From Lota lota (taxonomy: Eukaryota > Chordata > Actinopteri > Gadiformes > Lotidae), in the NCBI GenBank assembly GCA_026745465.1, contig JACYXH010000815.1:62001-126000 (forward strand): DNA of 64,000 bases, given 5' to 3'. Both the position numbers and the translations under genes were made by a program. The notes beneath the pieces are model-generated. The model was not told the DNA's origin. It was given only the letters and a program-made list of their open reading frames with translations, and did not search any database. This document shows, piece after piece, positions 15,728-63,720 of the stretch (positions are counted from its first letter, which is position 1; every line of letters begins with the position of its first letter).

Positions 15728-16548
15728 TTAATGGAGAATGAAAAAGGTAGAACCTACTGGCCCCTTACAGGCCACCATAGCTTCTTCAAGGTAATTGGAA
15801 GGGGAGAGGTGAGGGGGGTTCAGTTGGTTGCAGTTCATAACCTCACCACAAACGGCCACTGCACACTGCAGCTTTAAGTGTCCATCTCTCAAGATGCTAC
15901 CTTTCTGGCCGCGCTTCCCCTCGGCGAGATTGTGCCGGTTCTGCTCGGCCGCTGTTGGCTCCTGGCCCCCGCTGCTCCGAGACGGGCTGCGCTCCTCCAG
16001 CTGGCACAACAGCTCCAGCTGCTGCTGGAGCCGCCTTATGCGGCGCCGCTGGCGGTCCAGCTCCGGGCCGCTGCCCCCCTCCCCCCCGGGACTCGTCCGC
16101 CCGGAGCCCGCCAGTGGCAGAAGCCCCGCCGCCTCCTCCTTGGGCCGGTCCCGCTCCACGGCGGAGTGGTAGCCCGGGGGCGCCGAGGCAGGCGGCGGCT
16201 TAGGGCGGGACGTTAGGGTGGCGCGGCGGCGGAAGGTGTCGCGGACGCCGCCCAGGCCGAGGTGCACCATCTCCAGGACGGTGAGGAGCAGGCAGAGGAA
16301 GGACACCACGTACATCGCCAGCAGGAAGATGGTCTTCTCGGTGGGCCGCGACACAAAGCAGTCCACCGTGTGGGGGCACGGCGCCCGCTTGCACTTGTAG
16401 TCCGGCGCCACGCGGAAGCCGTACAGGACGTACTGGCCGTAGAGGAACGCCACCTCCAAGGCGGCACGGGACAGGAGCTGGCAGACGTAGACCTTCATCA
16501 GGCCGATGCGTAGACCTTCATGACGCCGGCCGTCGTGCTTCTCCTGGC
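15728..16548 (-). CDS. gamma-type connexin, coding exon 3
   Basis: Acceptor CCCTGCAG|GCCAGGAG; phase 1 fits exon 2. It encodes the second half of a connexin: HDGRR motif, then [20 protein letters not shown] (TM3, residues about 160-180), the second extracellular loop with its cysteines ([19 protein letters not shown]), TM4 ([20 protein letters not shown]), and a cytoplasmic tail with [10 protein letters not shown] and a basic, Arg/Gln-rich possible coiled coil ([17 protein letters not shown]). The HDGRR-LMK and SAPPGY motifs are shared with Cx45/Cx47/Cx43.4 (gamma group; gjc1, gjc2, fish gjc4). The ORF ends at 15728 without the usual SVWI-like C terminus, so the last residues are uncertain. 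Full reading with exons 1-2 is about 412 residues. Confidence 0.85.
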
Positions 16549-16552
16549 CTGC

Positions 16553-16925
16553 AGGGGGAGACACCAGGAGGACAAGAGACACCAGGAGGAGAGGCCAGGA
16601 GACACCAGGAGGAGAGACCAGGAGGACAAGCGACACCAGGAGGACAAGAGACACCAGGAGGACAAGAGACACCAGGAGGACAAGAGACCAGGACAAGCCA
16701 AGAGACACCAGGAGGAGAGACCAGGACAAGCCAAGAGACACCAGGAGGAGAGGCCAGGACAAGCCAAGAGACACCAGGAGGAGAGACCAGGACAAGCCAA
16801 GAGACACCAGAGGAGAGACCAGGAGGAAAAGCCAAGACACCAGGAGGAGAGACCAGGAGGAAAAGCCAAGAGAGACAAGGAGGTGAAGCCAAGAGAGACC
16901 ATGAGGTGGAGCCAAGAGGAGAGGA
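16553..16925. repeat. minisatellite in connexin intron 2
   Basis: Degenerate array of AGACACCAGGAGGAGAGACC/AGGACAAGCCA units. Because units are free of stops on the minus strand, exon 3 appears to extend far upstream in the raw reading frame. The splice acceptor at 16549-16550 marks the real exon start. Confidence 0.9.
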
Positions 16926-17258
16926 GATACCAAGGCGAGAAAAAACCGGAGACATACTGGTTATCTTATGGTGCAAGCTGCAGGCAACACAAAAGCCTTT
17001 ACATGGTGATTTCATTACATCCAAAGTTAGGTTTGTACTTTCATTTTGCGACCAATAGTGAATAAGTCCTGATGGAGTCATGTGCAGAGCCAGCCACTAA
17101 CACTACTACCACTACTAGGGTAGGGGGTTCCATTCCCACTGGGGTCACCCATGCTTACAAATGAATAATACAGCATGCACATTATACACTGGTCCCAAAG
17201 TGAAAGCATCAATCGTTTTTAGCTCAGCATGCTAAAGCTCTGCATCACTCCAGCGTAC

Positions 17259-17436
17259 CCTTGTCCGCCTTCTCCTTGTCCTGCTCCATCTCCTCCTCCA
17301 TCAAGGGGTCCTCCTCGCTGTCTCCCATCGCCTCCTCATCGCCGCGGGTCGGCCGGTACCGGGCGTCGCCCATGCGGGCAACCTTGTGCGTGGCGAAGCC
17401 CAGGTACATGATGGTGGGCGTGGTAATCATGAGCAC
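17259..17436 (-). CDS. gamma-type connexin, coding exon 2
   Basis: 178 bp between a poly-C/CAG acceptor and the donor AAGG|GTACGC. It encodes [22 protein letters not shown], which completes TM2, followed by an acidic cytoplasmic loop ([15 protein letters not shown]) like that of Cx45. It is joined in phase 0 to exon 1 and in phase 1 to exon 3, and the junction restores the loop leading to the HDGRR motif. Confidence 0.85.
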
Positions 17437-17455
17437 CTGGGGGGGGGGGGGGGTT
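17437..17455. repeat. poly-G run in connexin intron 1
   Basis: About 15 G (poly-C on the coding strand) directly before the exon 2 acceptor, where it forms the pyrimidine tract. Confidence 0.9.
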
Positions 17456-17534
17456 TGTCAGGTAAACCAGCTCGGTGAAACGTCCACCCCCCGTGGGGAA
17501 ACGTTCCGCCGGTCGGCGAGGGGGCGGGGCTCAC

Positions 17535-17774
17535 CTGGAAGACCCAGAAGCGGGCGTGCGAGAGCGGCGCGAAGGCGTTGTAGCACACGTTCTCACAGCC
17601 GGGCTGTTTCGTGTTGCACACGAAGCTGCTCTGCTCGTCGCCGTAGATGGTCTCACCCCCCACCGCCGTCAGCACGATGCGGAAGACGACCAGCACCGTC
17701 AGCCACGCCTTGCCCAAGAAGGTGGAGTGGTTGGAGATCTCGTCCAGCAGTTGCGTGATGAAGCTCCAGCTCAT
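17535..17774 (-). CDS. gamma-type connexin, coding exon 1 (start codon)
   Basis: Exactly 80 codons from ATG to the donor TTCCAG|GTGAGC. Starts [19 protein letters not shown], the standard connexin N terminus. TM1 is [18 protein letters not shown], the first extracellular loop has its three cysteines in [15 protein letters not shown] (residues 53, 60, 64), and the exon ends within TM2 at SHARFWVFQ. Six connexins form a hemichannel and two hemichannels a gap junction that passes ions and small metabolites between cells. The sequence is closest in style to fish Cx43.4/gjc4 and to Cx45. I do not assign an exact paralogue. Confidence 0.9.
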
Positions 17775-18089
17775 GGCGGCCCGGAGCTGGACAGCCTATC
17801 GGAAGACAGAATCAGCAGGGGGAGGAGGGACTGTGGATGCCTGTTGCTATTGTCGCGGTTGGCTATTATTATTATTGCGGATTGGCAACGCCTATATCTC
17901 CGGGGAAACTTGGCATGCACACAGAGGACACCTCCCTTGACATGTGATCAAATGTTGGTGTCGATGTCTTTTTCCGTGACGTCACAGTGTCAATTAAAGT
18001 GATTGCTCTGAAGCGTAATTCGCCAGCAGGTGGCAAAATATCACACATAAACGGCATCTACAATGTAACCACTTTCTGTGTGTGTCTCT

Positions 18090-24163: not shown

Positions 24164-24315
24164 CTGGGATAACAGCAGCTACACATCAAAACAGGGGTTA
24201 ACCCTGCTGTGTATTTACATATTTAGACACACACAATCCTCAATGTTTTCGCCTCAAGAGCCACGCGTTGACTAGCTCAACACAAACAATGACAAAACTA
24301 CGTTTGTTTTCTTAC

Positions 24316-27300
24316 CATGGACATGATGTCTTTCAGCTGGCTCGAGTAGGACACAATGTCCAATTTTCCGCTGGTCCTTATCGCCGAGGTATAGTGCATC
24401 TTCTTGGAGCACTGCTTCGAGTCAAACAGGGACATGACCACCTTGGTGGGCAGGCCCAGGCGGTTGAGGTTCTTCGGGCTGATCATCCAGGCGGCGTACG
24501 CGGAGGTCTTCAGGTTGGTCTGGGGAATGTGCAGGGGCTTCCTCTTCATCAGGAAACACCAGGTGAAGGTGGTGGCCGTCTTCAGGCTGGGGAAGGACAG
24601 GCGGTGGCTGTCTTTGGTGGTGACCACGGAAGCAGACGATGTCTTCTTTACCTGGCTACCGTGGAAGCTGGACAGTCTGATGGGGGATTTGGCAGGGGTC
24701 CACCTCTGTTCCTCACTCTTGTCCTGAGGTTTCAACGAGTTACTGGTTGAGATGGAGGTGGTTTGACTGAGCGCACTGCTTGCATCCCGAGGAACTACAG
24801 TTGTGTCTTTGTCCGGTTCGGTGCTATCCGGCGACATGGGTTTGCAGTCGTCGGTAGCCTCAGAGTCGTTCCCTGCTTTATCTTCTGACAAGGGTGGAGC
24901 CTCTGTTTCAATGGGACTATCCGCCGGCTCCGTGGTGCACACCTGTCTGACAAGTGTAAGCTTCCTCTGTCGAGTGACGTCGGCCATCTTGGAGTTAAGG
25001 TAGTTTACCGACCTGCCGTCTGTGAGACACGCGACGCCATGTTCGTCCTTGGCCCGCTTTTGGTGCTTCTCCATGTAGATGTCCAAGCTGTTGTCAGGGG
25101 AGAGCATTCGCTTGCTAGAGGCAGTGGGTTCCTGTTGAGGACAAAGCTTCACTGAAGCAAGCTTCTGCGTGCAATGTAGAGACCCAAGAGAAGATGGCTT
25201 CTCAACGGGATGGATCTGAGAGCTGCTGATGGTCTGCATTTGACCTCTATCCCTGTTGACGTTTGGCGTCGTATGGGGGTCATTACCAATGCTCTGAGTG
25301 GATGGATGGCTGTTTCGCTTGGCTAAAGATGAAGCAGGGTTAACTTGTTCATGGGTTATCAGAATCTGTGGCAATGGCGTAGCAACTGGTTGGCTCTGGC
25401 TGAACGAGTTCCTTTGCTGTCCTCCAGGTAAAACTACCTGCTGTGTCTTGATCTCAAGACCAAGATGCTTATGCTGAGCCATATAGACATTTTGGAGCAC
25501 CTCTGAAGACTTCGAAACACTCAAATTCAGATTGGCAAGGGGTATCATCAAAATAGGCAATGTCATCTGATTTCCCTGCGTGCTTGAAAATGAAAATGTT
25601 TGGCATGCTTTCTGAGCAGAACACTGCAGTTGGTACTTGGGCACCAAGCTTTTCCTTTCCTCAGATGCAGATGATTGAGGGAAGGTACTTTCACGACTTA
25701 CCACAATCTGGCTCGGAGGAGGCGGTAACTTTTGGCATGTTTGAACCCTGGACGTTTGATGCCAAGGGTGGGGAAGGCCATATATCTGAGGCTGCTGAGT
25801 TGGGCTTCCCAAATTAATACTTTGCACCATTTTCTCAGTAATTGTTATGGGTGTATCAACAAATAATGGTTGCGCAATATGTCCTTTGTTGACAATATTA
25901 GTATCTTGAGGTCTCCGCTGAATGAGAGGTTTAATGTTTGATAATGCCAATTTCTCCATTGGGATAATCATCTTCTTTGGATGTTGCGGAATCTCTGGAT
26001 TGATCTTTAAAGACATCTGCCGAACCAATGGGCCTCTCTGCCTTTCAATCAGGGGCACCTGGGGAAGTTGAGAGCCTTGTGTACATCTTGGCTGTGCGGC
26101 TGGAGACGCAGACCTTCTGGGAGACACATTGGCACAATCGAAGGACTTGCTACGGTAGTCGCAAGTCGGTAGCCCTCCACTGCGGGCTGAGTACAACTGA
26201 TCTGTTCAGACGCAGCCCGCCTCATGACACCAGGTACCCCTAGGGTGTTGAAAGCTGTTGATAGCCCTTGTGGTTCTTGGACAACAGTGACGCACTCGCC
26301 CCGGGAAGGGCTTTCGGACCTGGCGGCTTCTTCTCTGTCAAAAGAGGCTGAAACACTGGAGCAGCGTGATAGACTGCTGTCCCTGCTGAGGCTCCTTGAA
26401 AGGCTGGACTCATAACTGGATTCTCCTGAGGACTGCTCCATTTGAGCCAGCCGAATTCGCTTCTTTTTAGGTGGGTGTTTTTCCGCTGGTACCTTAGATA
26501 GGCTTTCACTTCTCGGGGGCCAGATGAAGGATTCTGTTGGCTTTTTTGTTGGCTCAGTTGTCTTTTTGTCATGTTCTCGGTCAGGCTCCTCTGTGACAAG
26601 GATCTCTGGGACCTGGATGTTGTTTTGACGAACCAGTCGAGACTGGTGCACAGGTGTAGTGCTCTCAGCAGAAACAGCTACAGGACAGTCAGCGCTGCGG
26701 TCCTGTTTTCCATAGTCAACACTCTTTTTCATGGTAGCCATCAACTGACGCATTCTCTGCTTCTGGGTTGGTCTTGCTTTGGACATGTTTAATGTCAACA
26801 GGTGATGTCCTGTCAAACGATTCGGATGTCTCGAATGAATTCGGTCTACTCAGTGAGTTGGTGTGTCTGATGACCGAGGTTCCACTGCCTTGTCTCTGCA
26901 GGTCTCCTCTCTCTTTAGCAGAAGTGCTTATCTGGGCCTCTCGGATTGGTGACAACCTGGAGTCAGAAGGATCTACAAGTTGGATCTGAGGTAGTTGTGC
27001 TTGGTGGCCTTTGGGCTGTATGTCCACTACGACCGCGCGAGAATGAGAAAACTTCTGGCCAGCCACGGCGGCCGTCAACTGACACGAATCGAAGCTGACA
27101 GAACAACGAGGAATAACGTCTGTCGGTGATTGATCGTCGTCATCTCCAACGCTCTTCATTTTCCTTCTCTTTCTAATCGAGGTCTGCTGGTCCAGAACAC
27201 CTGGAAGTCCTGATAACCTCTGGACCGGGGGCTGCATTAAAGTAACCTGGAAGACATCTGGATAATTTTCTTTAACCATGACTGGCTTGTTTTTTGGACC

Positions 27301-30205
27301 GTGAAGCTCAGAGCAGTAGAACTTCTTGTGATTTTCAAAATTCTCTAGCTTTCTGTACCGATTCCGACAAGTCTCGCACTCATACATGGTGCCTTTAGTC
27401 TGCATTAGCCTTCTGCTCTTGTCCTGACCATGCTCAAAAGACCTGCTTCGTTGCATCATCTCCGTGGATACATTGGAGCCATGATAGCCTTCGTCCATTG
27501 AACGAACAGTGGGGATACTGTGCTTTTCATGTGTGGTAAAATCCTCGACAGCCACTTGCCTAACTAAAGTGCGGGAATGAATAGCAGGGTTTGGGGTAGT
27601 TGGGGCTGAGGAAAAGACGTCATCGTTCAAAGAACTAATCTTGTCGTCAAACGACTGGCAAAATCGCAAGGGGTAGAGCTGTGGGGCAACATTAATTGGA
27701 AGTCCAGAGTTTCCTGGTGTCGTTGGCATAGAGTTACTCCTTGTAATTGGTAAACAATCCATAGGCGGGTACTGAGAGGGACAGGAAGAAAGAAGAAATA
27801 CTGGCTTTGATTTATCTGTGGGGGTGAATGGAGACTTGGGAATATCAGAGCTAGAACTTGACCTTCTTCCAATGGGATTGAGGTCAAATTGAAAAGAGTC
27901 TTTGAATATATATGACTTTGGAGAGTCTTCTATGCTTCCTCTCCTGGGAGAGAGAGAGTTCTCCTCGGTTTGAGACGTCGCTGACGCTGTCTCAGCTTGT
28001 TATCAACTGCCTCGTTGTCCGATATTAACTTTGAGATACGCTCCTCTAAAGAGAGTGCTTTGTTTCCGGTGTGGCGGTCGCATCATGTCATTGTGTCCCT
28101 CTGGGTTGTTGCTCCTCAGGGACATGCATCACTTGGCAGCAACCACAGGGGAGACATTCGAAACAGTGATCTTGGAGATGTCAGTTTCCGCTGGCGGAGT
28201 TATCTTCACAAACGCAAAACCTCGCACCTCATTCACTCGCCAGCACCGCCACTGCTTCCTAAACCGTCGTGTGCACTGCTTGGCCTGTTGGCCTGGGAGA
28301 GAGAGTCACGTTGAGCCTGTTTGCGCATGGCCTCCAGAAGGGACAGGAGTCAGTGTTGGTCTTCGTCTTTGCTCTCTGTCAAAGAGGCTGGGACTAGCAG
28401 GGAGACTTGGTGTACTGGTAACATGAACTGTGCAGCAGACTTATTGCAGTCTGTGGCTCATATCAGATTGACTTTGGGAGATGGGCCTGAGAGCTCTGTC
28501 TAACTGCCCTCAGGAGGCCAACTCTTGTCCATCCTGCTGTTGGCACTCAGATAGGTCTCCACATAACTGACTGTTGCCTCCTTTGCTTCCACTCGACGGA
28601 GGGGTTTGACACTCCTGCGCCTTCCAGATATGCTTCATATCTCCCTCAGCCTAGCGTGGTCTCCTCGCTGTCAGTGCAGGCCCCACCACAGTCACCAGTG
28701 TCCCTTAATGTCTTTCGGATCAACGTCTGGTCCTCTTCGCTTCCTCTTCCTCTGCTCTAGGCCTGCCCCTCTCTCCCCGAGAGAGGCCCGCTGCCGTCTC
28801 GCTGCAAGCTAGCTTCAGATAGCGCCGTAACACTACTTTGGGAGGAGTCAGGGTCCTGGTCCGCAGTGCTACTCTCTCCATCACTGTCTCCGCTGTCCTC
28901 AGCCTCCGAATGCGTCCCGTCTGCTCTGTCCGATTCCTGGGAGAGCGACCCGCTGCCTCCATTGGATTCGGATCTTGCGACGAGAAAGAGTTTTATGGCG
29001 TGAGCGCGGGACTTCCTGTGCTTGTACAAGTTGCTGTTGGTCTTGAACGAGAAGCCACATGTAACGCACGGGTATGGTCTCTCGCCCGTGTGAGACCGGA
29101 TGTGTTTTAGCAGGACACTGGGCTTAGCACATGCCCGACTGCAGTACTCGCACACATACTTCCCCTGCTTCTTTGGCTTCAGGTCCTTAGCTGCCTGTTC
29201 GGGACCTATGTTCACCACGGTGGCCATTTGGACCGGGTTGCAGCCAGGCGTCACTGGGACTTGGATTGTGCTGGGAACGCTGGCTGTGATGGACTGGCAC
29301 GTGTGAACCACCGGTGGTTGGCTTTGCGGCATGGCCTTACACCCAGAAGGAATGGGGGCGTGGGTGATGGTGGATGAGCCAGTGTGGAAGCTAATGTGCA
29401 AGCCTTGTTTCTCCTTGCTGGAGGCTAGGAAGTGGGGCGTGGTTTGATGCGTAGACTGCAGTTGGGTCACATGGCCAGAGGAGGACACGTTGCTCCCGAT
29501 TGGAGCAGCGATGCCGATCACCTTCCCTTGTGTGTCAACATAATACGTCTGCACATGGGAAGCTTGGTTCTGAAGACCAAAGTTGACACTTGTTGGCATT
29601 GTCTTAATGTCAGTTCTTGGCTGGACAGGGACAGTCGGGGCTGGTCTCCCAGTGGCTTGCATTTGGAAGGAGCGCTCTCCTCTCCACTAAAGTACTGAAG
29701 TCCTGCTCCATGGCCTTGAGTAACACTTCGAGGGGAGCGTTCGAGTTGTAAGACCCCCCCTCTGAAGTTGGGGTCACTGCTGTTGCCGCTTCTGCTGCAC
29801 TCGGGCTGGGATACCTCGGCTTCAGTCTCAGGTTCCTCACTGCCGGGAGTGGAAGTCAACGACGGCGGCGGCGCCGCGAAGAGGACGTTTCTGGCGGCTT
29901 CAGCTCTTCATGGTTGGGGGAGGATGTTCCTTCCGCGGAGATGCTGATGGGACTTGCTGGGCATACTTGGGGTCTCTGTTCACACTTGGCGACTTTGAGG
30001 TGTTATGGGAGGGCTCTCAGGGTTTGCAGGGCAGGAGACAGTCGCTGTCTCAGAGGTGGCCCTGGAGTCCGGTCCGGTTTCTTTGACTGCAGGGGCTTCT
30101 TCACGGGGGATTTGGGGATTTTCTTCAGCTGATTCTCTGCCACTATTTTCTTCCTCTTCAAGCCTTTGATGTTGTCTGCATTTCTTCGACTGCTCCCAGA
30201 TATCC
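24316..30205 (-). CDS. hivep1: hivep1 giant central exon (ZAS-N fingers, CHC2-type finger), frame-broken
   Basis: HIVEP1 (Schnurri-1 family) is a nuclear transcription factor binding kappaB-like sites and acting in TGF-beta/BMP and immune gene control. The 5.9-kb exon runs from TCCTCAG|GGATAT to CCATG|GTAAGA, the size of the giant human exon. Recognisable in order: [32 protein letters not shown]; first finger pair [20 protein letters not shown] / [19 protein letters not shown] near 29150-29000; [31 protein letters not shown]; the central finger [20 protein letters not shown] near 27360; [59 protein letters not shown]; and the tail [12 protein letters not shown]. The frame changes at least five times (near 30000, 29660, 28760, about 26760, about 26165). 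Confidence 0.85.
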
Positions 30206-32053
30206 CTGAGGACAACAAACGAGAAAGATACAGGAAGGTGAGTGAAAAACACAATGGGCCATGACAAACAAACTTTTTTGTACAAAAAAGGACAATAAAC
30301 ATGAAGTTATATTCCTGAATTGAAAAAAAAGGAAGCAAGCTGGCAGAAAACCTTTTTGTTTTTCAAAAGGCACGCGTGGTTTTGATAGAAACACCCACAC
30401 AAAAGAATATATAAATAATAGATACATTCTTGTTTCCACTTAACTGCCACTTGCATAACCATACAATAAACAAATGAAGTCATTTAGTTTAGTTGCAGTG
30501 CAGAGGCATTATATAATCAATGAACAAAATGCAATGCTGTTACGCAACAAATGAAAATAATGCGGTCCCTCCAGCACTTCAAATGTTATACCTTGGAAAA
30601 CAAGATAGAAGTTAATCCAAATTAATTCAGCCAGATGATGAATCAAACTCTTGTGTTCAGTGTTAAAACGCATAAAAAGCATAAAGACCTAGTGTTGTTA
30701 AAATGGGCGCACCCAAACTTCGAGTGGCACGCAATTCATGACCATTGCTACTGAAACCGGCAATGCTGGTTTCAGCTGGTTTTATTTTAAGGACGTGTGA
30801 CTGTCACAGTTTCCTGGCTTGTTAAGGTATTTCCCAAGAGGAGGTCAGGATTCCTACGGTCACTGGCAGAATTAGATTGAGGAAGACCTAGTCTCTTTAC
30901 ATTAGATAACCCCCCCCCCCCCCCCCCGCCCGCCAAAAATAGCGTGTTCTGCACTGAGACAAACAAGAAAATATGAAGTATGACTATATGAGGAAGAAAA
31001 AAACAGCAAAAATAACTTTACTGCAATAGGGACCACTCTGGTTCCTTAAAAAAAATTCCGCTTATGAATGACTTAATATTGATTTATTCAGTGAATTGTT
31101 TATTTAAGATATTGTTATGCTGTCTTTGTTTTATATTACAAAAATGTTGTAAATGGTCAATCATTTTTACAATTCTCTCCACTGAGTTAAGTATTGTTTA
31201 AAAGACGTGTTTAGCTCAGGATGTGAGAGCTATAGGAAGTGACTAGTCAAAAAGATTACCCTCTGTGATATCAGCAGCGGCTGTATTTTGTTTGAAGAGA
31301 TTTCTATGGACCTTTCAGTCTAATTTCAGTCAACCGATCCCATTAGAAGGAAGTTATGTGTCCCTGTGCATGCATGGCCTGCTTTCTTTACTTGTTATTT
31401 TCAACACTGTTTTGCAATCTTGGGAAGACATATTTGACATAGATTATTTTCCTGTTCAGCCAGAAAACCCTTTAAAAGTCTGAATGAATCTCCTAAGTTG
31501 TGTAATAAAATTACTGAATAAATAGTAAGATTTGAATAAATGACCGCATACATCATACGTCATGATGTAGACAAAGTAATGGAGCAATTTTACAAACAAA
31601 GTTTGTTTTTAGAAGGGCAACAAAAACATAAAGTTTAAATTCTGTACCTCCGCTTATAATAATAATAATCTACCACCCCCAACTGCTGCATGTTAATATT
31701 AACCCCCACAGTTTCACTCTTCCCCATTAATGTTTTTCCGATCCTCTTCGTCTGGTCCCTAGTTCAGGCTACACACCACAGAACATTCCTTACAAAATAA
31801 GGAAAATGGGAGGAATTCCCTCCACACACCTCGGCCCGACTCAACTGGAAAAGACCCTGTGCTCGATAGTTCCTGTTTGAAACATAAACCCTGAAGCTTC
31901 TGACACACACTCACACACACGCACCAGCACACACACACACACACACACACACACCCGCACACCCACACACCCGCACACACACACACACACCCCCACCCAC
32001 CCACCCCCCACCCCCCCCCCCCCCCACACACACACACACACACACACACGCAC

Positions 32054-32116
<63 letters not shown>

Positions 32117-32153
32117 CACACACACACCCACACACCCACACACACGATCCTAC
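30206..32153 (-). other. hivep1 intron
   Basis: Intron between two phase-matched coding exons. Contains a poly-C tract at 30909-30929 and the CA-rich array 31905-32146; otherwise AT-rich with no feature. Confidence 0.7.
31905..32146. repeat. CA/CCCA compound microsatellite
   Basis: (CA)n with CGCACCAG interruptions and a central poly-C (about 32008-32025). Confidence 0.95.
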
Positions 32154-32207
32154 CGTTGGGTGAGCCGGTTGGGTCTTTGAGTTCTTTCTGCGCCTCCTCG
32201 ATTTTAT
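32154..32207 (-). CDS. hivep1: hivep1 short 5' coding exon
   Basis: 54 bp, acceptor TTGCAG|ATAAAA, donor CAACG|GTAGGA. Encodes [18 protein letters not shown], matching the [12 protein letters not shown] segment near the N terminus of HIVEP1. It ends in phase 1, and exon 30205-24316 starts with the two bases needed. The first coding exon (family start MPRTKQIHP) was not found to the right and may lie beyond the window or in unrecognised sequence. Confidence 0.8.
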
Positions 32208-32287
32208 CTGCAACACAACAACACAGGAGGGCATGTTGTCACAACGCGGCACTGAAGGAGGAGAAGGAGACAGACATCAGACAGACA

Positions 32288-32866: not shown

Positions 32867-33698
32867 TGTGGCAACCCGGTTCCACTATGCGGTCGTTTCC
32901 CCCCAGTGAACACAAACCGGAAGTCAATTTGAAGCCAAAAAGGCGTATTTATTAAACAAATAATAAATAAACTATAAGTTAGACCGTGCCTAACACCAAC
33001 CTAAATGTTATTCATTAATTAATGGTCCGGCTGTAATCCCCGTCTCCTCTCCGTAGACGGTCTGGTTCAGCCGCCGGGGTTTCCGTGGACCCTCCAATCA
33101 TTTGCGGGGCAGTCCTCTCTGTCGGTCCTCTGTAGGGGACTGCCGAACTCCAGGACACTCCTCCGTGTCGCTCACGGGCGATCTCCTCCTTGGTGTCGCT
33201 GCCGAGCAATCTCCCTCTCGGTGTCGCGGCCCAGCGATCTCTTCCTCGTATCGCTTTCCACTTGGTGGCGCTCCCGTGTTAACAGGGGTTCCCTCTCTCG
33301 TAGGGCCGAGGGACCTCTTCCCCGTATCGTCAAGCGATCTCGTCCTCGAGTCGCTCACCTCGTTGTCGCCGGGGAATCTCCTCCCATCGCCGAGGTATCT
33401 CGTCCTCGTATCGGGTTGACGGGATTTCCTTCCCCGTGTCGTTTCGCCAAGGAAACTCCTTTTCCCCGTAGCGCCGAGGTTCCTCGTTCTCGTATCTCGT
33501 CTCTCGTCTCCCCGTAAACCACGCCGAGCGCCGCTTATGTCGGCGTTTCTTCCGTCGTCGCCGGTGTCGCCCATTTCGTTGATTACTATCAACGCTAATG
33601 AGCTCCGGCGTGCGATTTTCCGGAGAGCGGTGGTATACTCCATTTACCACTGCTCCCCTGAGCCTCCTGGGGCGCTGTCCTGGAGCCGGGTTGCCACA
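32867..33698 (-). mobile_element. long terminal repeat (probable 3' LTR)
   Basis: On the minus strand the block starts TGTGGCAACCCGGCTCC and ends GGAACCGGGTTGCCACA: 17-bp inverted ends with one mismatch, TG...CA. Immediately upstream on that strand is a purine-rich tract AAAGGGTGGAGGAG (33699-33712), a good polypurine tract, so this is the 3' LTR of a minus-strand element whose interior lies to the right. An AATAAA lies at 32948-32953, about 85 bp before the end, suiting an R/U5 boundary. The U3 part (33100-33560) is a degenerate array of short CGAGGACGAGAT-like units. No second LTR was found, so no target duplication can be tested. Confidence 0.6.
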
Positions 33699-33712
33699 CT
33701 CCTCCACCCTTT
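33699..33712 (-). promoter_or_regulatory. polypurine tract next to the LTR
   Basis: AAAGGGTGGAGGAG abutting the TG of the LTR on the minus strand; expected plus-strand primer site of an LTR retroelement. Confidence 0.5.
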
Positions 33713-33770
33713 GATGAAGGCCCGGGCTTCTCCAGGACGCCACGAGGCAGGCGTCGCCGGGGGTTCCCGT

Positions 33771-34661
33771 CATCCTCCTCGGAGGTCTCCGTCGCGGAGG
33801 ATTGGGCCATGGGACCCCGTAGGCGGGTCAGGCGGCGCGTCTGTGCCGCCTCGGGTGTGGTCCATGTCCGTCGCTCCGGTACTTCTCGGCCTGGCGTGGG
33901 TCGGCAGGGCCGGCCTCCTGGGCCCTCCTCCGCAACTCGGCCAGCAGATCCTCCAGCTGCTGGTGGCTGCGCTCCACCTGCTGGTCGCTGCGGCCCAGGT
34001 GCTGTTCACTGCGGCCCAGGTGCTGGTTGCTGCGGCCCAGGTGCTGGTTGCTGCGGCCCAGTTGCTGGTTGCTGCGGCCCAGGCGCTGCATGGAGGCTAA
34101 CCGCTCGGTCAGCTCGGCGTTGGCCGCCCCCAGCTGTCTCGAGCGGGACGCCTCCCTCTCCAGCTGCACCTGCAGGCTCTTGTTCTGGCGCTCCATCTGA
34201 GCGCGAGCGCCCTCCAGGACCTGTGAGGTACTGCGCTCCGCCGTCATCTCCACGCTCATCTGGTCCGTCTGCAGCATGGCTCTCTTGAGACGGTCGTTGA
34301 CGAGCTCCGTGTTACACTGCTCCTCCTCCAGCTGGGCAATGCGTGCCTCCAGCCTATTCTCCGTCTCCTTGGCCTGGGCCAGGATCTCCTCCCGGGACAT
34401 GCGGGTGTCCTCCAGTTCCCAGATCAGCTCCTTCATCCGCTCGATGATACGCTCCTTCTCAGCGAGGGATTCCTCCAATGTGGAGAGAGCGGTGTCCATG
34501 TTGGAGGTGTCTACCTGCAGAGACTTGACCCTCTCTTTCAGGCTGCCCATCTGCTTCTCCTTGTCCCGAAGCTGCTCCTGCAGGTTCTCAACACCCGTCC
34601 AGTCTATGCACGCTGCTTGCATATTAGCATACCACAGCGGGAAAACCGAAGACATTAGTGA
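33771..34661 (-). CDS. intronless chimeric coiled-coil ORF: ELKS/ERC-like plus myosin II tail-like
   Basis: One continuous minus-strand frame. The N-terminal part (about 34595-34435) reads LQEQLRDKEKQMGSLKERVK and TALSTLEESLAEKERIIERM, as in ELKS/ERC active-zone proteins. It passes directly into LEDTRMSREEILAQAKE, RLEARIAQLEEEQCNTELVN, DRLKRAMLQTDQM and ARAQMERQNKSLQVQL, the distal coiled-coil tail of non-muscle myosin II (MYH9/10/14), with blocks missing compared with myosin. A 21-bp repeat then codes heptads. The family genes are multi-exon, so this is an mRNA-derived fusion. It sits directly before a polypurine tract and LTR. Start is uncertain: an ATG at about 34661 is preferred because text upstream of it is CA microsatellite. 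Function unknown. Confidence 0.65.
33955..34085 (-). repeat. 21-bp repeat coding coiled-coil heptads
   Basis: About six units of CTGCGGCCCAGGTGCTGGTTG (plus-strand view). On the minus strand each unit is one heptad of the type LGRSNQQ, with variants HLGRSEQ, HLGRSDQ and VERSHQ. Confidence 0.85.
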
Positions 34662-34705: not shown

Positions 34706-35270
34706 TTAGCGGTGTATGCTATGTACAGAGCATTAGCGCCTGCTAACTATGTGACGTAACAACAAGACCTCTCTCGGCACGCGAGGACCGCCACTAAGAC
34801 GGTATCGCCACGCCGACCAGGAAGGACGCACAGCAGGGGTGGGAAAACAAGGTAGCGGCCTTTTCTGTTTTCAGTTCAGTGTTGAATAAACCTTTATTCA
34901 GGTAATCAAAAGGTACAGCGTTTGAGTCGGTGGATTGAGATTTGAAAATTGTGTGGTTGATTTTTTTCTCTTTGATCATAAATTATTTTTCATCTTTTTC
35001 AGGCATGAATATAAACTGCTCAAAAAATAAAGGGAACACTAAAATAACACATCCTAGATCTGAATGAATGAAATAATCTTATTAAAAACTTTTTTATTTA
35101 CATAGTTGAATGTGCTGATAACAAAATCACACAAATATTATCAATGGAAATCAAATTTATCAACCCATGGAGGTCTGGATTTGGAGTCACACTCAAAATT
35201 AAAGTGGAAAACCACACTACAGGCTGATCCAACTTTGATGTAATGCCCTTAAAACAAGTCAAAATGAGGC

Positions 35271-36312
35271 TCAGTAGTGTGTGTGGCCTCCACGTGCCTG
35301 TATGACCTCCCTACAATGCCTGGGCATGCTCCTGATGAGGTGGCGGATGGTCTCCTGAGTGATCTCCTCCCAGACCTGGACTAAAGCATCCGCCAACTCC
35401 TGGACAGTCTGTGGTGCAACAAGTTGCACAAGTTGCAACAAGTTGGTGGATGGAGCGAGACATGATGTCCCAGATGTGCTCAATTGGATTCAGGTCTGGG
35501 GAACGGGCGGGCCAGTCCATAGCATCAATGCCTTCCTCTTGCAGGAACTGCTGACACACTCCAGCCACATGAGGTCTAGCATTGTCTTGCATTAGGAGGA
35601 ACCCAGGGCCAACCGCACCAGCATATGGTCTCACAAGGGGTCTGAGGATCTCATCTCGGTACCTAATGGCAGTCAGGCTACCTCTGGCGAGCACATGGAG
35701 GGCTGTGCGGCCCCCCAAATAAATGCCACCCCACACCATGACTGACCCACCGCCAAACCGGTCATGCTGGAGGATGTTGCAGGCAGCAGAACGTTCTCCA
35801 CGGCATCTCCAGACTCTGTCACGTCTGTCACATGTGCTCAGTGTGAACCTGCTTTCATCTGTGAAGAGCACAGGGCGCCAGTGGTGAATTTGCCAATCTT
35901 GGTGTTCTCTGGCAAATGCCAAACGTCCTGCACGGTGTTGGGCTGTAAGCACAACCCCCACCTGTGGACGTCGGGCCCTCATACCACCCTCATGGAGTCT
36001 GTTTCTGACCGTTTGAGCAGACACTTGCACATTTGTGGCCTGCTGGAGGTCATTTTGCAGGGCTCTGGCAGTGCTCCTCCTGCTCCTCCTTGCACAAAGG
36101 CGGAGGTAGCGGTCCTGCTGCTGGGTTGTTGCCCTCCTACGGCCTCCTCCACGTCTCCTGATGTACTGGCCTGTCTCCTGGTAGCGCCTCCATGCTCTGG
36201 ACACTACGCTGACAGACACAGCAAACCTTCTTGCCACAGCTCGCATTGATGTGCCATCCTGGATGAGCTGCACTACCTGAGCCACTTGTGTGGGTTGTAG
36301 ACTCCGTCTCAT
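35271..36312 (-). pseudogene. Tc1 transposase with C-terminal frameshift
   Basis: Cut-and-paste transposase. Best start is [20 protein letters not shown] at 36312, which begins the paired-like helix-turn-helix domain; an Arg-rich hinge (RRRGGGRRR) follows. The DDE catalytic parts are visible: LFTDESRF (first Asp), [20 protein letters not shown] (second Asp) and [16 protein letters not shown] (final Glu). At about 35450 the frame changes: the C-terminal text [16 protein letters not shown] continues in another frame to the stop near 35271. So the copy is probably inactive unless the shift is a sequencing error. Confidence 0.85.
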
Positions 36313-36589
36313 GCTACCACTAGAGTAAAAGCACCGCCAGCATTCAAAAGTGACCAAAACATCAGCCAGGAAGCATAGGAACTGAGAAGTGGTCTGTGGT
36401 CACCACCTGCAGAACCACTCCTTTATTGGGGGTGTCTTGCTAATTGCCTATAATTTCCACCTGTTGTCTATTCCATTTGCACAACACCATGTGAAATTTA
36501 TTGTCAATCAGTGTTGCTTCCTAAGTGGACAGTTTGATTTCACAGAAGTGTGATTGACTTGGAGTTACATTGTGTAGTATAAAGTTTCC

Positions 36590-36911
36590 TGTAGCCACTC
36601 TGGCTACCGACCAGGTGTTCAAAAGAACCTCCACACACACCAGTGCTGAGCAAAACTGTCACCTTTTATTGCACACTTTAAATAACACCAAAAAACAACG
36701 CTTGTCCGTCTCTGGGGAAATGCGTGATCGCCTTCTGGGCGAGTTGCTTCCTCTACTCAGACCCACCTCACTGTGGGAAATGAGCACAATACACATCATA
36801 TTTAATACTATCTAATTGCGCTCATAGCCTACAGCTGCGTCTAGACCCCAATTGAGCCGCGTCCGCCCTCTGCCCGGCAGCCGGCGCTAAATCCACGCCC
36901 TCCGTACCACA
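36590..36911 (-). mobile_element. solo LTR inserted in the Tc1 terminal repeat
   Basis: Block beginning TGTAGCCACTCTGGC and ending CTCCGTACCACA (TG...CA), 322 bp. Flanks are GTTTCC (36584-36589) and GTTCC (36912-36916), a 5-bp target duplication if one T is extra. On the minus strand it contains AATAAA (plus-strand TTTATT at about 36664). No internal region remains, as expected after LTR-LTR recombination. Confidence 0.6.
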
Positions 36912-37099
36912 GTTCCCTTTATTTTTTTGAGGCAGTGTATATATTTGCATCGACAACAAATATAGCACACACACACACCTCACACACCAGCCGGACCTTC
37001 CATCACCCTAAATGATTTGGGTGTTGATGTGAAAACTCTGACCCTTGATGCCTGTGTGTGTGCACGTCCGAACATGTGTGCGTTCCAAGCTGAAACTCA

Positions 37100-48440: not shown

Positions 48441-51400
48441 TAACAGTAATGTCACAGTCAGAGTATGCTAAGCTATGGAAGAAGGCAAATGTGCCAGAGC
48501 TAGGTACATGTCCTATCAGTCTTAAAACATATACGGGACAAAAAGTTGACATTCTGGGGTCAGCTAATGTGAAAGTTGAACATAAAGGAATGGTCAAAGA
48601 GTTACCAGTTGTAGTTGTAGCGGGGTCAGGACCAAACCTGCTTGGGCGAGGGTGGATCACCAAGTTAGATGTGGACTGGCGTACAATGAATAAGATAATG
48701 GACAGCAAAGATGCTTTACAGGAAGTGTTAAAGAAACATGAGCAGGTGTTCAAGGATGAGCTTGGCACATTAAAAGGAGCCACAGCAAAGATACATGTAG
48801 CCAGTGATGCTACACCCCGCTTCTTCAAACCGAGGTCAGTTCCGTTTGCAATGAAAACGAAGGTAGAGGCTGAGTTAGATCGGCTCTTGAAGGAAAACAT
48901 CATAGAACCAGTGAAGTTCTCAGACTGGGCAGCACCAATAGTCCCAGTGGTAAAACCGGACAATACGGTGAGAGATTGTGTGGTGACTATAAAGTGACTG
49001 TAAATAGAGTGTCATCACTAGAACAGTACCCCATTCCTAAAATGGAGGACATGTTCACGTCCCTAGCGGGGGGGTGAAAAATTCAGTAAACTGGATATGA
49101 GTCATGCTTACCAACAGATAAGGCTAGATGAAGACTCAAAGAAATACGTCACAGTGAACACGCACAAGGGACTGTTCACCTATGCAAGGTTACCCTTCGG
49201 AGTCAGCTCCAGTCCTGCAATCTTCCAGCGCACTATGGAAGGGATTCTACAGGGGATTCCCCAGTGTGCAGTCTATCTCGACGACATCCTTCTGACAGGA
49301 ACGGATGATCAGGACCACATCCGTACACTGGACAGAGTGTTACAACGGCTGGAGGAGGCAGGGCTACGATTGAAAAGGAGTAAGTGCAACTTCATGGAGA
49401 AGGAAGTTACATTCCTAGGACACAGGGTGGACGCTACTGGGCTGCATCCAGTGCCAGAGAAAAGTGAAGGCGGTCCAAGATGCACCAGCGCCTACTACAG
49501 TCACGGAATTGAAAGCATATCTGGGACTGTTAAACTACTACCATAGGTTCCTACCGAAGTTGTCTACCCTATTGGCTCCTCTGCACCAGCTGCTTAGGAA
49601 GGACGAGCCATGGTGTTGGGGGTCGGAGCAAAAACGGGCCTTCAACCAGTCAAAAGAATTGTTACAGTCGAGCAGAGTGTTGGTACATTATGATGAAGGA
49701 AAAGTACTGATACTATCCTGTGATGCCTCACCCTACGGGTTGGGAGCGGTATTGTCTCATCGTATGCCAGATGGGGCTGAGAAGCCTATAGGGTTTGTAT
49801 CGCGCACACTCTCACCTGCTGAAAAGAACTATTCAAAACTTGATAAGGAGGGGTTAGCTATCATATTTGGCGTGAAGAAGTTTCATAAATACTTATATGG
49901 GAGGAAGTTTGAAATCTGTACTGACCATAAGCCTCTTATCAGTTTGTTGAATGAAATGAAAGCGGTGCCACAAATGGCATCTCCCAGAATAATGAGATGG
50001 GCAGTAACATTACGAGCATATGAGTATGTCATTACTTACAGAGCAGGCATGGACAACGGTAACGCTGATGCTCTCAGCCGCCTCCCTCTCCCAGAGTGTC
50101 CAAGCAGTCCGCCTCCTGAGGAACGAGTGCTAATGCTGGATCAGGAGATCAGCCCAATGACGACCTCGAAACAAATCCAGAGCTGGACAGCCAAAGATCC
50201 AGTCCTGTCGAGGGTCCGGGAGTACCTACTGAGGGGCTGGCCAAATCACATGGATGGACATGAGTTTGCCGTTTACAAACAGAGGCAGCACGAGCTCAGT
50301 GTTCAGGACAGCTGTGTGCTGTGGGGAGCCCGGGTCGTCGTTCCAGAGAGAGGTCGCACAGCAATGATGGAACAACTGCATCAGAGTCATCCCGGCATGA
50401 CCAGAATGAAAGGCTTGGCCAGGAGCTACATGTGGTGGCCCAATATGGATTCTGACATTGAAAAGAAGGTCAAATCATGCACCACATGTCAAGAGCAGAG
50501 AAAAGCACCTGCTAGTGCCCCACTCCATCCCTGGGAGTGGCCCAGTAAGCCATGGAGAAGGCTACACATAGACTATGCAGGTCCTTTCATGGGAAAGATG
50601 TTTTTGGTAATAGTAGACGCTCACTCAAAATGGATGGACGTATACCCATTGAGCTCAGCTACGTCAGCTGCTACCGTGGATAGTCTCAGGAACAGTTTCA
50701 GTAGTCACGGCATTCCGGAGATGATCGTTTCAGATAATGCTCAGTGTTTTGTGTGTGAGAACACCAAAGAGTTCATGACAAAAAATGGAATCACACATGT
50801 CACATCAGCACCCCACCACCCTTCTTCCAATGGGCTGGCGGAGCGGGCTGTTCAAACTTTTAAAGAGCTAATGAAAAAGAGCTCAGGTGAGACATTGGAG
50901 ACAAAACTGAATAGGGTTTTATTTAGTTATCGTATAACTCCACAGTCTACCACTGGACTTTCCCCTGCTGAGATGATGATGGGAAGGAAGTTGAGGTGCA
51001 CATTAGACCTGATACACCCAGATCTAAAGAGTAAAGTGGAGGCTAAACAAGCAGGACAGAAAACATACCATGACAGACACACAAAAGATCGCAGTTTTGT
51101 TGTCGGAGACTTGGTGTATACCAAGAATTTTGGGTATGGCCCTAAATGGATACCGGGGCTGGTTCAGGAGATCACAGGGCCCGTCTCGTACACTGTACTA
51201 TTGGGGAATGGTCGAGTGGTGCGTCGGCATGTTGACCAGCTGTTCAGCAGGCAAGAAGATGACAGTTCAGAGCCAATGACAGACAAAACAGACGAGGACG
51301 ACTACAGAGAGCTCAGTCCACCAGACAGTGAGGTGCCACAGGACACAGGTATACCACGGGCACAAACAGACAATGCACCTGTTGCTGAGGAAATCAACGC

Positions 51401-51485
51401 GCCTGGTGGTTCACCTAAAGTGGAATTGCGACGCTCTCAAAGAACAAGAAAAGCCCCAGCTCGTTTTGGAGAGTTTGGGAGGTAA
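48405..51485 (+). CDS. pol of the mag-type element: protease, RT, RNase H, integrase (frame-broken)
   Basis: Protease: the active-site text around 48420 (I-D-T-G) is shifted by a missing T in a T-run. [16 protein letters not shown], then [33 protein letters not shown] and [10 protein letters not shown] near 49270. RNase [17 protein letters not shown] and [10 protein letters not shown], ending [11 protein letters not shown]. Integrase: HHCC finger [17 protein letters not shown]...CTTCQ, core [15 protein letters not shown] and NGLAERAVQ (D,D-E), ending near 51485. One-base shifts lie near 48430, 48965, 49070 and 49465; the last is an extra A in AAAA. Confidence 0.9.
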
Positions 51486-58788: not shown

Positions 58789-60008
58789 TCACTCTTTCAT
58801 CACTTCAGGATACACCTCGATGACTCTTGCTAGCTTCCATTGGTTTCGTGGTGCGGCAGCATCTTGCAACAGAACAATGTCACCGACCTTAGCATTTCTG
58901 CGATCTTTGGTCCACTTCTGTCTGTGTTGGAGATTCAGGAGATACTCCTTTTTCCATCGTACCCAAAAGTTGTTGGTTAAGAGTTGAACTCTGCGCCATC
59001 TTTTGCGGAGGTAGAGATCTTCCTTGACAAACTTTCCAGGGGGAGGGAGAATGATTGTGGATTTCATGGTCAAGATGTGGTTTGGTGTCAAGGGCTCTGG
59101 ACTGGTAGAATCGTTCAGATGATCAGTGGTTAGAGGTCTGCTATTCACAACCGCCATAACCTCATATAGAAATGTTCGTAGGGAAGAGGAGTCAAGTTGT
59201 CTGGATGACTGTTCTAGAATGGACGCCAGGACACTTCTGATAGTGCGGATTTGTCTTTCCCAGACTCCACCCATATGACTTGAGGCAGGGGTGTTCATGA
59301 TGAACTCGCAGCCCAAATCTTTGAGCTCTTCTTGATCTGTCTCTTTCAGTGCTTCAATGAACTCACGCCTTGCTCCGACAAAGTTTGTCCCTTGATCACA
59401 CCTTATCTGCCTTACTGATCCACGAATGGCGATGAAGGAGCGCAGAGCATTGATAAAGGCATCTGAGGTCAAGTCATCAAGTGCTTCAATGTGAACTCCT
59501 CTTGAACACATGCAGGTGAGCAACAGCCCATAACGCTTTAGCTCTTTCTTCCTTCCTTAATGTGAAACGGTCCGAAGCAGTCCATACCACAGTAAGTAAA
59601 TGGAGCAGTTGTTTCCATCCGCTCTTCTGGAAGGTCTGCCATCCTTTGTTGCTCTGTGCATCTTCGGAACCTTCTGCAACTTGTGCACTTGTGAATATGG
59701 GATGAAACAAGCTTGCTGCAACCCAGGATCCATATGCCATTGGATCGGAGTTCATTTATAGTCATTCCTCGACCTTGATGGTACACCCTCTCATGATAGT
59801 GCTTGACGAGCAATGCAGAAACATGACTGCCTCTAGGAAGTACTGCTGGATGCCTCACATGTGGATGTAGGGCAGCATTAGCTAAGCGGCCTCCTACTCT
59901 GATTACACCTTGGTCATCCAAGAACGGACATAGTTTGTGCAACTGGTTGGCTTTGTCTTTGACATTTGTCTCCTTATGATGTCTAAGGCGTCGAATGTCT
60001 TGAGAGAG
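58789..60008 (-). CDS. BEL/Pao polyprotein, integrase end (interrupted)
   Basis: Two overlapping minus-strand frames give the C-terminal half of a BEL/Pao Pol. From 60008: LHKLCPFLDDQGVIRVGGRL, the typical Pao pre-integrase motif, then HHCC finger text (HYHERVYHQGRGMTINELRS...CTSCRRFR) and the first catalytic segment YCGMDCFGPF. After a shift near 59530 comes CSRGVHIEALDDLTSDAFIN, IRCDQGTNFVGARREF, the WERQIRTIRSVL helix with Glu, and the BEL-specific C terminus NFWVRWKKEYLLNLQ. The protein integrates element DNA. The N-terminal part is cut off at 60008 by the gypsy LTR. Confidence 0.85.
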
Positions 60009-62094: not shown

Positions 62095-63078
62095 TTAATG
62101 ACTCACGGCCCACACGTAATTGCCCACGTCGTAATTCCTCAGTCGGCAAAGCACACGGGTGCATTTTCTGGTCGGAGGAGGACGCTGGGAAAGCACTGCG
62201 CCCACACCGGTGTCCGAAGCGTCCACCTCCACCACGAACTGGTTTGCAGGGTTGGGTTGGACGAGAATCGGGGAGGAGACGAAGCGTTCCTTGAGGTTGA
62301 GGAACGCTGCTTCGGCCTCCGAGGTCCATAGAAAAGGGCTCTTAATGGAGGTCAGAGCAGTGAGGGGTGCCGCGATCTGACTGTACCCGCGGATGAACCT
62401 CCGATAAAAGTTTGCAAAACCCAGGAATTGCTGGAGCTTCTTCCGGGTAGAGGGAGTGGGCCATTCAGCAACCGCCGAGACCTTTGCAGGGTCCATCCTG
62501 ACCTGTCCCTGGCCGATGATGTATCCCAGGAAAGAAGTGGAGGTGACATGAAACTCGCACTTCTCAGCTTTGACGAAGAGCCGATTTTCTAGGAGCCGCT
62601 GGAGAACCTGCCGGACGTGGATCTTATGTTCCTCCAACGACTCGGAGAAGATGAGTATGTCATCTAAGTAAACGAAAACCGAGCGGTTCAGCATGTCGCG
62701 AAGAACGTCGTTCACGAGGGCTTGGAAGACGGCTGGGGCGTTAGTGAGACCGAAAGGCATCACTAGATATTCAAAGTGGCCAAGGGGAGTGTTGAACGCC
62801 GTCTTCCACTCGTCCCCCTCCCGGATGCGGACCAAATGGTACGCGTTACGCAGATCGAGTTTAGAAAAAATCTGGGCTCCGTGGAGGGGAACAAAAGCAG
62901 AGCTGATCAGGGGCAGAGGGTATTTATTCTTAATGGTGATACCATTCAGGCCTCTATAATCAATACAAGGACGGAGGGAATGATCCTTCTTAGAAACAAA
63001 AAAAAATCCCGCTCCGACCGGAGAAGAGGAAGGGCGGATAATTCCCGCGGCCAGGGACTCCTGAATGTACCGCTCCAT
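62095..63078 (-). CDS. reverse transcriptase of the chromodomain gypsy element
   Basis: Continuous RT core: [67 protein letters not shown] and the catalytic [11 protein letters not shown]. It ends in the first RNase H strand ([18 protein letters not shown]). Most of the RNase H is missing: after YDVGN the text breaks, and integrase text starts only about 100 bp later. So the element carries a deletion as well as shifts. Confidence 0.9.
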
Positions 63079-63118
63079 AGCCTCCCGTTCCGGGCGGGAG
63101 AGATTAAATAACCGACTG

Positions 63119-63720
63119 CTAGGCAGGGGTGCGCCCGGAAGAAGGGTCTATGGAGCAGTCGTATGGGCGGTGGGGAGGCAAAGTGAGAGTGTGTGTCTTA
63201 CTAAAAATCTCCGCGAGATCATGGTAACAATCTGGAACCGCGGACAGGTCAGGAAGTGGCGGTTTCGTGGATTCAACTACGTGGGGTGACGAGGCGGAGC
63301 GAAGGCAGTGGGAGAGACAGTGAGGGCTCCAGGACGTAATACGAGCCGATTGCCAATCGATGTTAGGATTGTGCTCTCGCAACCAAGGGAAACCCAACAC
63401 TATTGGGGAAGCGGGACAGTCCATAATATGAAGTGAAAGTGTCTCGCGGTGATTGCCCGAGATTAACAAAGAAATCGGTACGGTTTGATGCTTAATACGG
63501 CCGAGGGACTTCCCATTGAGAGCCTGAGTCTCAATAGGGGAGCTAAGCGGGGTCGAATCTATTTTGAGTTGTTTAACCAACTCGCTATCAATAAATGACT
63601 CGTCGGCCCCTGAATCTAAAAGAACAGAAAGTGGAATCGCCTGGCCTCGCCACGAGAGAACGGCATCTAACTGAGGTCGGAAAACAGAGGGAATAAGAGT
63701 ACGACTCGCCAGGACCCCTC
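63119..63720 (-). CDS. protease region of the chromodomain gypsy element
   Basis: Minus-strand text from about 63720 contains an aspartic-protease active site of the form [12 protein letters not shown] near 63620-63590, followed by [16 protein letters not shown], the later [13 protein letters not shown] strand and a linker to RT with [20 protein letters not shown]. It stops at 63119, shortly before the RT frame. Confidence 0.8.

Follow-up and report, generated by a model that had tools for sequence, protein, structure and literature searches.

How did a single intronless reading frame, which looks like an ELKS/ERC coiled coil fused to a non-muscle myosin II tail, come to lie directly against a long terminal repeat (LTR) in the genome of the burbot, Lota lota? 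We addressed this question for a 64-kb stretch of DNA (64,000 nucleotides, hereafter the window, to which all coordinates refer). The initial annotation, made from the sequence alone, had proposed that an LTR retroelement captured pieces of two unrelated host transcripts and carries them as its own ORF. Our analysis partly supports this interpretation: the capture of host mRNA pieces stands, but the sources are more than two, and the copy in the window is truncated, has one LTR and belongs to a large family. The reading we favor, and consider very probable, is that of a young non-autonomous LTR family with a single gene, itself a shuffled mosaic of captured host coiled coils. Judged from its sequence, the window copy is a 5'-truncated member of this multi-copy family.

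The window copy and the sources of its reading frame

The frame is open on the minus strand from 34718 to 33828, stop codon included, and its protein (P0001) was translated from 34661. Pfam recognizes in it both Cast, the ELKS/ERC family (1.3e-20), and Myosin_tail_1 (2.3e-21), and a PDB sequence search returned the ELKS1 chain 8i3e for residues 24-78 (1.2e-19) as well as myosin-9 (5.5e-15). The ERC part is 84% identical over 55 aa to an ERC1-like protein (P0044), while myosin II identity amounts to 71% over 41 aa with the genomic fragment P0062 and to 56% over 63 aa for the second myosin piece. Chance similarity was rejected on these values and on a match of 75% over 80 aa between another family protein, P0007, which has a myosin-18A-type coil, and the myosin-tail protein P0068 (we take the gene behind this coil to be myosin-18A). 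The features of the window copy are collected in Table 1.

Table 1. Features of the window copy, with the evidence for each.
Feature	Position	Strand	Evidence
Non-family upstream part of the open frame (flank of truncated copy)	34593..34661	-	compared with L014, L017, L018
ERC/ELKS-derived segment	34437..34592	-	P0001 residues 24-75; Cast, 8i3e, P0044 match, exon edges
Non-muscle myosin II tail, first piece	34359..34436	-	residues 76-101, MKELIWELEDTRMSREEILAQAKETE; match to genomic fragment P0062
Non-muscle myosin II tail, second piece	34179..34358	-	residues 102-161; after losses of 52 + 4 aa relative to MYH9-like protein
Third coiled-coil module, common to the family	33876..34178	-	residues 162-262; match to P0063
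21-nt tandem repeat tract (7-residue unit) inside third module	33953-34099	-	repeat search
Linker and stop, no knuckle	33828..33875	-	resembles start of linker before CCHC knuckle in P0011, L028
Family 3' tail ending in polypurine tract	33699..33827	-	tblastn match in window and all 17 elements
Polypurine tract (PPT) AAAGGGTGGAGGAG	33712-33699	-	abuts TGTGG at 33698
3' LTR, 832 bp, TGTGGCAACCCGG...CCGGGTTGCCACA	32867..33698	-	TG...CA ends
AATAAA in LTR	32953-32948	-	read from sequence

Homology to the rest of the family starts at 34592, so that the family part of the ORF is 34592-33828 of the minus strand; residues 1-23 of P0001 (34661-34593) lie outside it, and other copies differ there. Position 34592 is also an exon edge in ERC-like genomic frames, which may be a coincidence. 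The PPT, the TG...CA block and the polyadenylation signal noted in the initial annotation were all recovered, but the inverted ends, given there as 17 bp, measure 18 nt (32867-32884 and 33681-33698), with 94% complementarity between the two arms. A blastn search of 32867..34661 against the 64-kb window found no second LTR for this copy, which has a single LTR and no target-site duplication (TSD). The 21-nt repeat codes for the unit LGRSNQH, and its copy number varies among family members.

Both parental genes appear to be interrupted where the window is not. Five ERC-like frames (P0013, P0015, P0022, P0024, P0030) carry unrelated residues between SLAEK and ERIIER, which we read as an intron, and in the myosin-like fragments exons finish with AVLQ or AMLQ (P0059, P0061) and one begins with TDQM (P0060); these places were taken from public contigs of unstated species. 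In the window, the DNA continues without a break through both places (SLAEK/ERIIER and AMLQ/TDQM), so that both introns are gone, and the intronless ERC to myosin II frame described in the initial annotation is borne out. At these two introns, comparison with the genomic frames supports a capture that would have passed through spliced RNA. With the two introns absent, the possibility that the ORF is an exon of a host gene, raised along with the original proposal, was also rejected.

At the ERC-to-myosin join, the two parental sequences read LKE and MKE. Splicing or deletion after capture had been suggested for the blocks missing from the myosin part. The larger loss has both of its borders within exons (join KETE/RLEARI), and it is therefore a deletion; exon skipping was rejected because this join is intra-exonic on both sides. 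A burbot protein, P0002, shows the same joins and the same losses as the window ORF, so the chimera was inherited and not formed at the window locus.

Downstream of the myosin pieces, the third module is matched (1e-13) by P0063, a fragment that reads like a host exon, and its start is present in 12 of 16 burbot proteins. We assume its source to be an ANKRD26-like gene, akin to CCDC144. Some family members give a Pfam match to CCDC144C close to their N-terminus (P0012, 1.8e-16; P0067, 4.1e-17). By sequence comparison, the window ORF is drawn from at least three sources, and the family as a whole from at least five.

The window unit itself (35572-32719) recurs with its flanks on C706 (98.5%) and partly on C549 (97.9%), where it corresponds to the loci L009 and L010, and on C862 an LTR end (L029) lies beside the same zinc-finger gene as the window copy. 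These three recurrences are perhaps uncollapsed haplotypes.

Complete elements in the burbot genome

We searched the 575-Mb assembly (867 contigs), in which the query gave 669 candidate places and the LTR alone 665, 40 being scored in each case. Twenty regions were fetched, of which L009 and L010 are copies of the window unit and the other 18 are family loci; in 18 of the 20, an LTR with TG...CA ends lies on each side of related sequence. Seventeen internal regions were read (L019 was dropped, having the same matches as L018) and 16 distinct loci were dated (L015, close to L014, was also dropped). A PBS-like TATGGTGGAGRATGCGGGC follows the 5' LTR in all 17 elements, exactly in 12 and with one or two changed bases in five, and a PPT precedes the 3' LTR in family elements. 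A 4-bp TSD flanks 12 of the 16 loci; five of these duplications are weak and lie in simple repeats (L014, L017, L020, L023, L025), that of L025 requiring the LTR end to be shifted by one base, and none was found at L013, L016, L018 and L026. Divergence between the two LTRs of a locus (K) ranges from 0.0014 (L028) to 0.0905 (L018) over the 16 loci, the LTR ends of L016, L018 and L026 being placed only roughly.

The internal regions are short, 574-2212 bp, and none of the 17 gave a match to any of four pol queries, i.e. none of them qualifies as an autonomous element. In nine, a single frame of 416-737 codons spans at least 87% of the internal region without a stop; frames are interrupted in the other eight, three of which (L018, L023, L026) still keep 387-466 codons. 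TRIM and LARD elements are non-autonomous LTR elements that have LTRs, a PBS and a PPT and lack pol, and the burbot family resembles them in all these points; it differs in that 9 of the 17 sampled copies keep a long coding frame with host-derived segments.

Further copies with two LTRs around the ERC-myosin sequence, which the original proposal had led one to expect, were found at L014 and L017. Cargo labels of the loci are tblastn matches, ERC and myosin II having been queried with proteins from outside the family; at L014 these matches reach 82% for ERC and 65% for myosin II. Myosin-18A cargo (L013, L024, L027) matches at only 31-50%, and the ROCK1 and CCDC144 labels are matches to pieces of the family protein P0012. 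The cargo of the family includes ERC, myosin II, ROCK1-like, myosin-18A-like and CCDC144-like pieces, and we suspect citron kinase as the cargo of L011 and L022. Intronless host segments lie between LTRs as in host-transducing elements of the Bs1 type, judged from the intron places in public contigs.

A further family LTR pair is located at C736:128641-131401, with about 1.4 kb between the LTRs. The family LTR also occurs without the ORF of the window, an observation that the initial annotation had listed as contrary to its reading: L030 is an LTR fragment with no coil match, and other copies have other cargo. A family of this kind should, however, include solo LTRs and copies with exchanged cargo, and the observation does not refute the capture. 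The L030 fragment lies beside a gypsy gag-pol, and no LTR pair links the two.

Cassette exchange, relatives and precedents

Copies with nearly identical ends can carry different middles. Among the 11 elements compared, L013 and L022 are 98.4% identical over their first 243 bp and 97.1% over their last 307 bp, and their middles share no match of at least 120 bp at 85% identity or more; cargo therefore varies between copies whose ends are 97-98% identical. Shared blocks were found in other pairs as well: L017 and L027 have 443 bp in common at 95.3%, carrying ERC, L014 and L026 have 560 bp in common at 93.2%, and the ERC-myosin stretch of the window matches L017 at 94.9% identity across 414 bp.

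A complete copy is built as LTR, PBS, mosaic coiled-coil ORF, PPT and LTR. We propose that host mRNAs were packaged together with element RNA, to which template switching of reverse transcriptase joined them, and that later jumps between element RNAs may have reshuffled the segments. An autonomous element, of which we found none with this LTR among the sampled copies, would supply reverse transcriptase and integrase in trans.

Protein searches returned 12 burbot proteins among 62 matches and four more among 17. The annotated proteins nearest to P0001 are from burbot (87% identity over 52% of P0001), and the ERC plus myosin II cargo is found in P0002, P0003, P0004, P0009 and P0010. P0012 has a ROCK1-type coil (6.7e-29 to 3o0z). 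In 17 named proteins of Gadus, Arctogadus and Boreogadus, the ERC piece occurs with different neighbors; in the proteins of these genera (between P0018 and P0058) a longer ERC piece is followed by another coil. Seven of these 17 Gadus-type proteins contain a string spanning the PPT and the start of the LTR (P0056, 1e-13; P0053, 1e-12), and a related LTR therefore exists in that lineage. Going by these sequences, this second gadid lineage with a related PPT-LTR border possibly captured ERC independently; a tree of 47 ERC residues separates burbot-type from Gadus-type copies, which is compatible with one ERC capture or with two. Scans of viral and prokaryote contigs and of plasmids gave no relatives.

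We found no description of this cargo in open-license PMC papers, and a term search of the codfish genome paper PMC13011446 showed that "gag" and "coiled" are absent from its main text. Maize Bs1 comes closest as a precedent: this LTR element has taken up parts of three host genes (PMC13317346, PMC5408686). As far as these accounts describe it, Bs1 is similar in that several host gene segments sit in one LTR element, whereas the cargo of the burbot family varies by copy, has at least five sources, and its traceable pieces are coiled-coil regions. LTR-mediated retrocopies, including in zebrafish, have been described, together with template switches that link the RNA of LTR elements and host mRNA where the two share microsimilarities (PMC5408686, Tan and coworkers); the retrocopies in that description are copies of parental genes, whereas the burbot family replicates, and keeps and reshuffles segments of several genes. 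The coiled coil of mammalian L1 ORF1 also changes fast and has been passed between families (PMC3600994), a likeness in a mobile-element coiled coil that is exchanged, yet L1 belongs to the non-LTR elements, and there the exchange is from one L1 family to another. LTR retrotransposons of bdelloid rotifers have added ORFs, some with coiled coils (PMC5408684); those described are env-like or code for enzymes, and two kinds are considered to have passed among retroelements and not to come from the host. With the burbot family, one vertebrate genome very probably holds a young LTR family with repeated capture and exchange of host coding segments. Its near-identical ends and different middles make the frequency, the join rules and the selection of template-switch gene fusion measurable.

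A putative Gag-like role and its alternatives

Several observations bear on what the protein may do. L028, with a single difference between its two LTRs in 700 aligned positions, encodes a coil, a linker and a CCHC knuckle (Pfam, 1.1e-6) in one DNA frame, and the protein P0011 has the same layout. A clear knuckle was found in two of the 17 elements, L028 and L021 (the latter by tblastn), with a weak match in L024; the other 15 sampled elements are without a clear one. The AlphaFold model of P0011 (single chain, 9 sequences) is a single helix over residues 24-297 with the remainder at low confidence, and this one model has no capsid fold. We tentatively propose, at less than even confidence and from this layout and model, that the predicted protein would be a Gag-like scaffold with a host coil in place of the assembly domain, whose CCHC knuckle would, in some copies, bind RNA; this is the least certain step of our scheme. 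Equally tentative is the idea that the lineage has lost a capsid domain of its own and makes its Gag out of exchangeable coiled coils from the host. If the protein works, the assembly protein of a mobile element can be assembled from host parts; any in-frame coil would then work, copies would compete by swapping host cassettes, and the family would be an open-ended protein-shuffling machine in the vertebrate germ line.

One rival reading, to which we give about the same weight, concerns this Gag-like step only: host pieces trapped by template switching could be passive cargo in an ORF that does nothing, spread depending only on intact LTRs, PBS, packaging signals and PPT. Amino-acid change is nearly neutral, which favors this reading (dN/dS 0.58-0.97 in 10 pairs; ratios of 0.70-1.85 in 20 pairs, in well-aligned blocks only), and the interrupted frames of eight of the 17 elements, as well as the mere 574 bp left inside L020, point the same way. 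Against it, the other nine remain open over most of their length, exchanged-middle pairs such as L013 and L022 included, and no nonsense change was seen where neutrality would give 1.1-5.3 per pair, in copies that were, however, chosen for being open. The net changes of 56 and 84 aa in the window ORF are multiples of 7, and a crude model of the heptad register of P0001 places only two shifts. Selection on the register is nevertheless not supported: beyond the repeat tract, a length divisible by 7 is found in only 3 of 24 indel rows, which is about chance.

A lineage-specific family of host coiled-coil genes, with LTRs merely nearby, is most improbable: 16 copies are indeed annotated as Lota lota proteins, but the ORF region is directly bordered by LTRs, PBS, PPT and TSD, the burbot copies are spread over at least 10 contigs of different length, and the internal regions are open without introns. 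We give still less credit to convergence, i.e. an ordinary Gag coiled coil only resembling ERC and myosin: coiled coils do give spurious mutual scores (the weak rows of the PDB search), but the identities with ERC, myosin II and P0068 given above speak against it.

As for its surroundings, the window element of this mosaic family seems to sit within an intron of a large gene for a C2H2 zinc-finger protein (24298-32210, minus strand) and to share its orientation. We take this gene to be HIVEP-like, with an exon near 32150-32204; MBP-1 (1bbo) is among its PDB matches, with other zinc fingers scoring higher. On the other side is a Tc1-like DNA transposon (35022-36927) with perfect 16-bp inverted ends and a transposase frame at 35311-36399 on the minus strand (Pfam HTH_Tnp_Tc3_2 and DDE_3). 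The window also contains a connexin gene on the minus strand (15728-17795; Pfam Connexin, 3.6e-39, for 15728-16960, the part at 17427-17795 being assigned by eye). Three further places (49419-51485, 58789-59556 and 62095-63147) hold remnants of other LTR retroelements, in which Pfam finds domains of reverse transcriptase, RNase H or integrase and, in one of the three, DUF5641.
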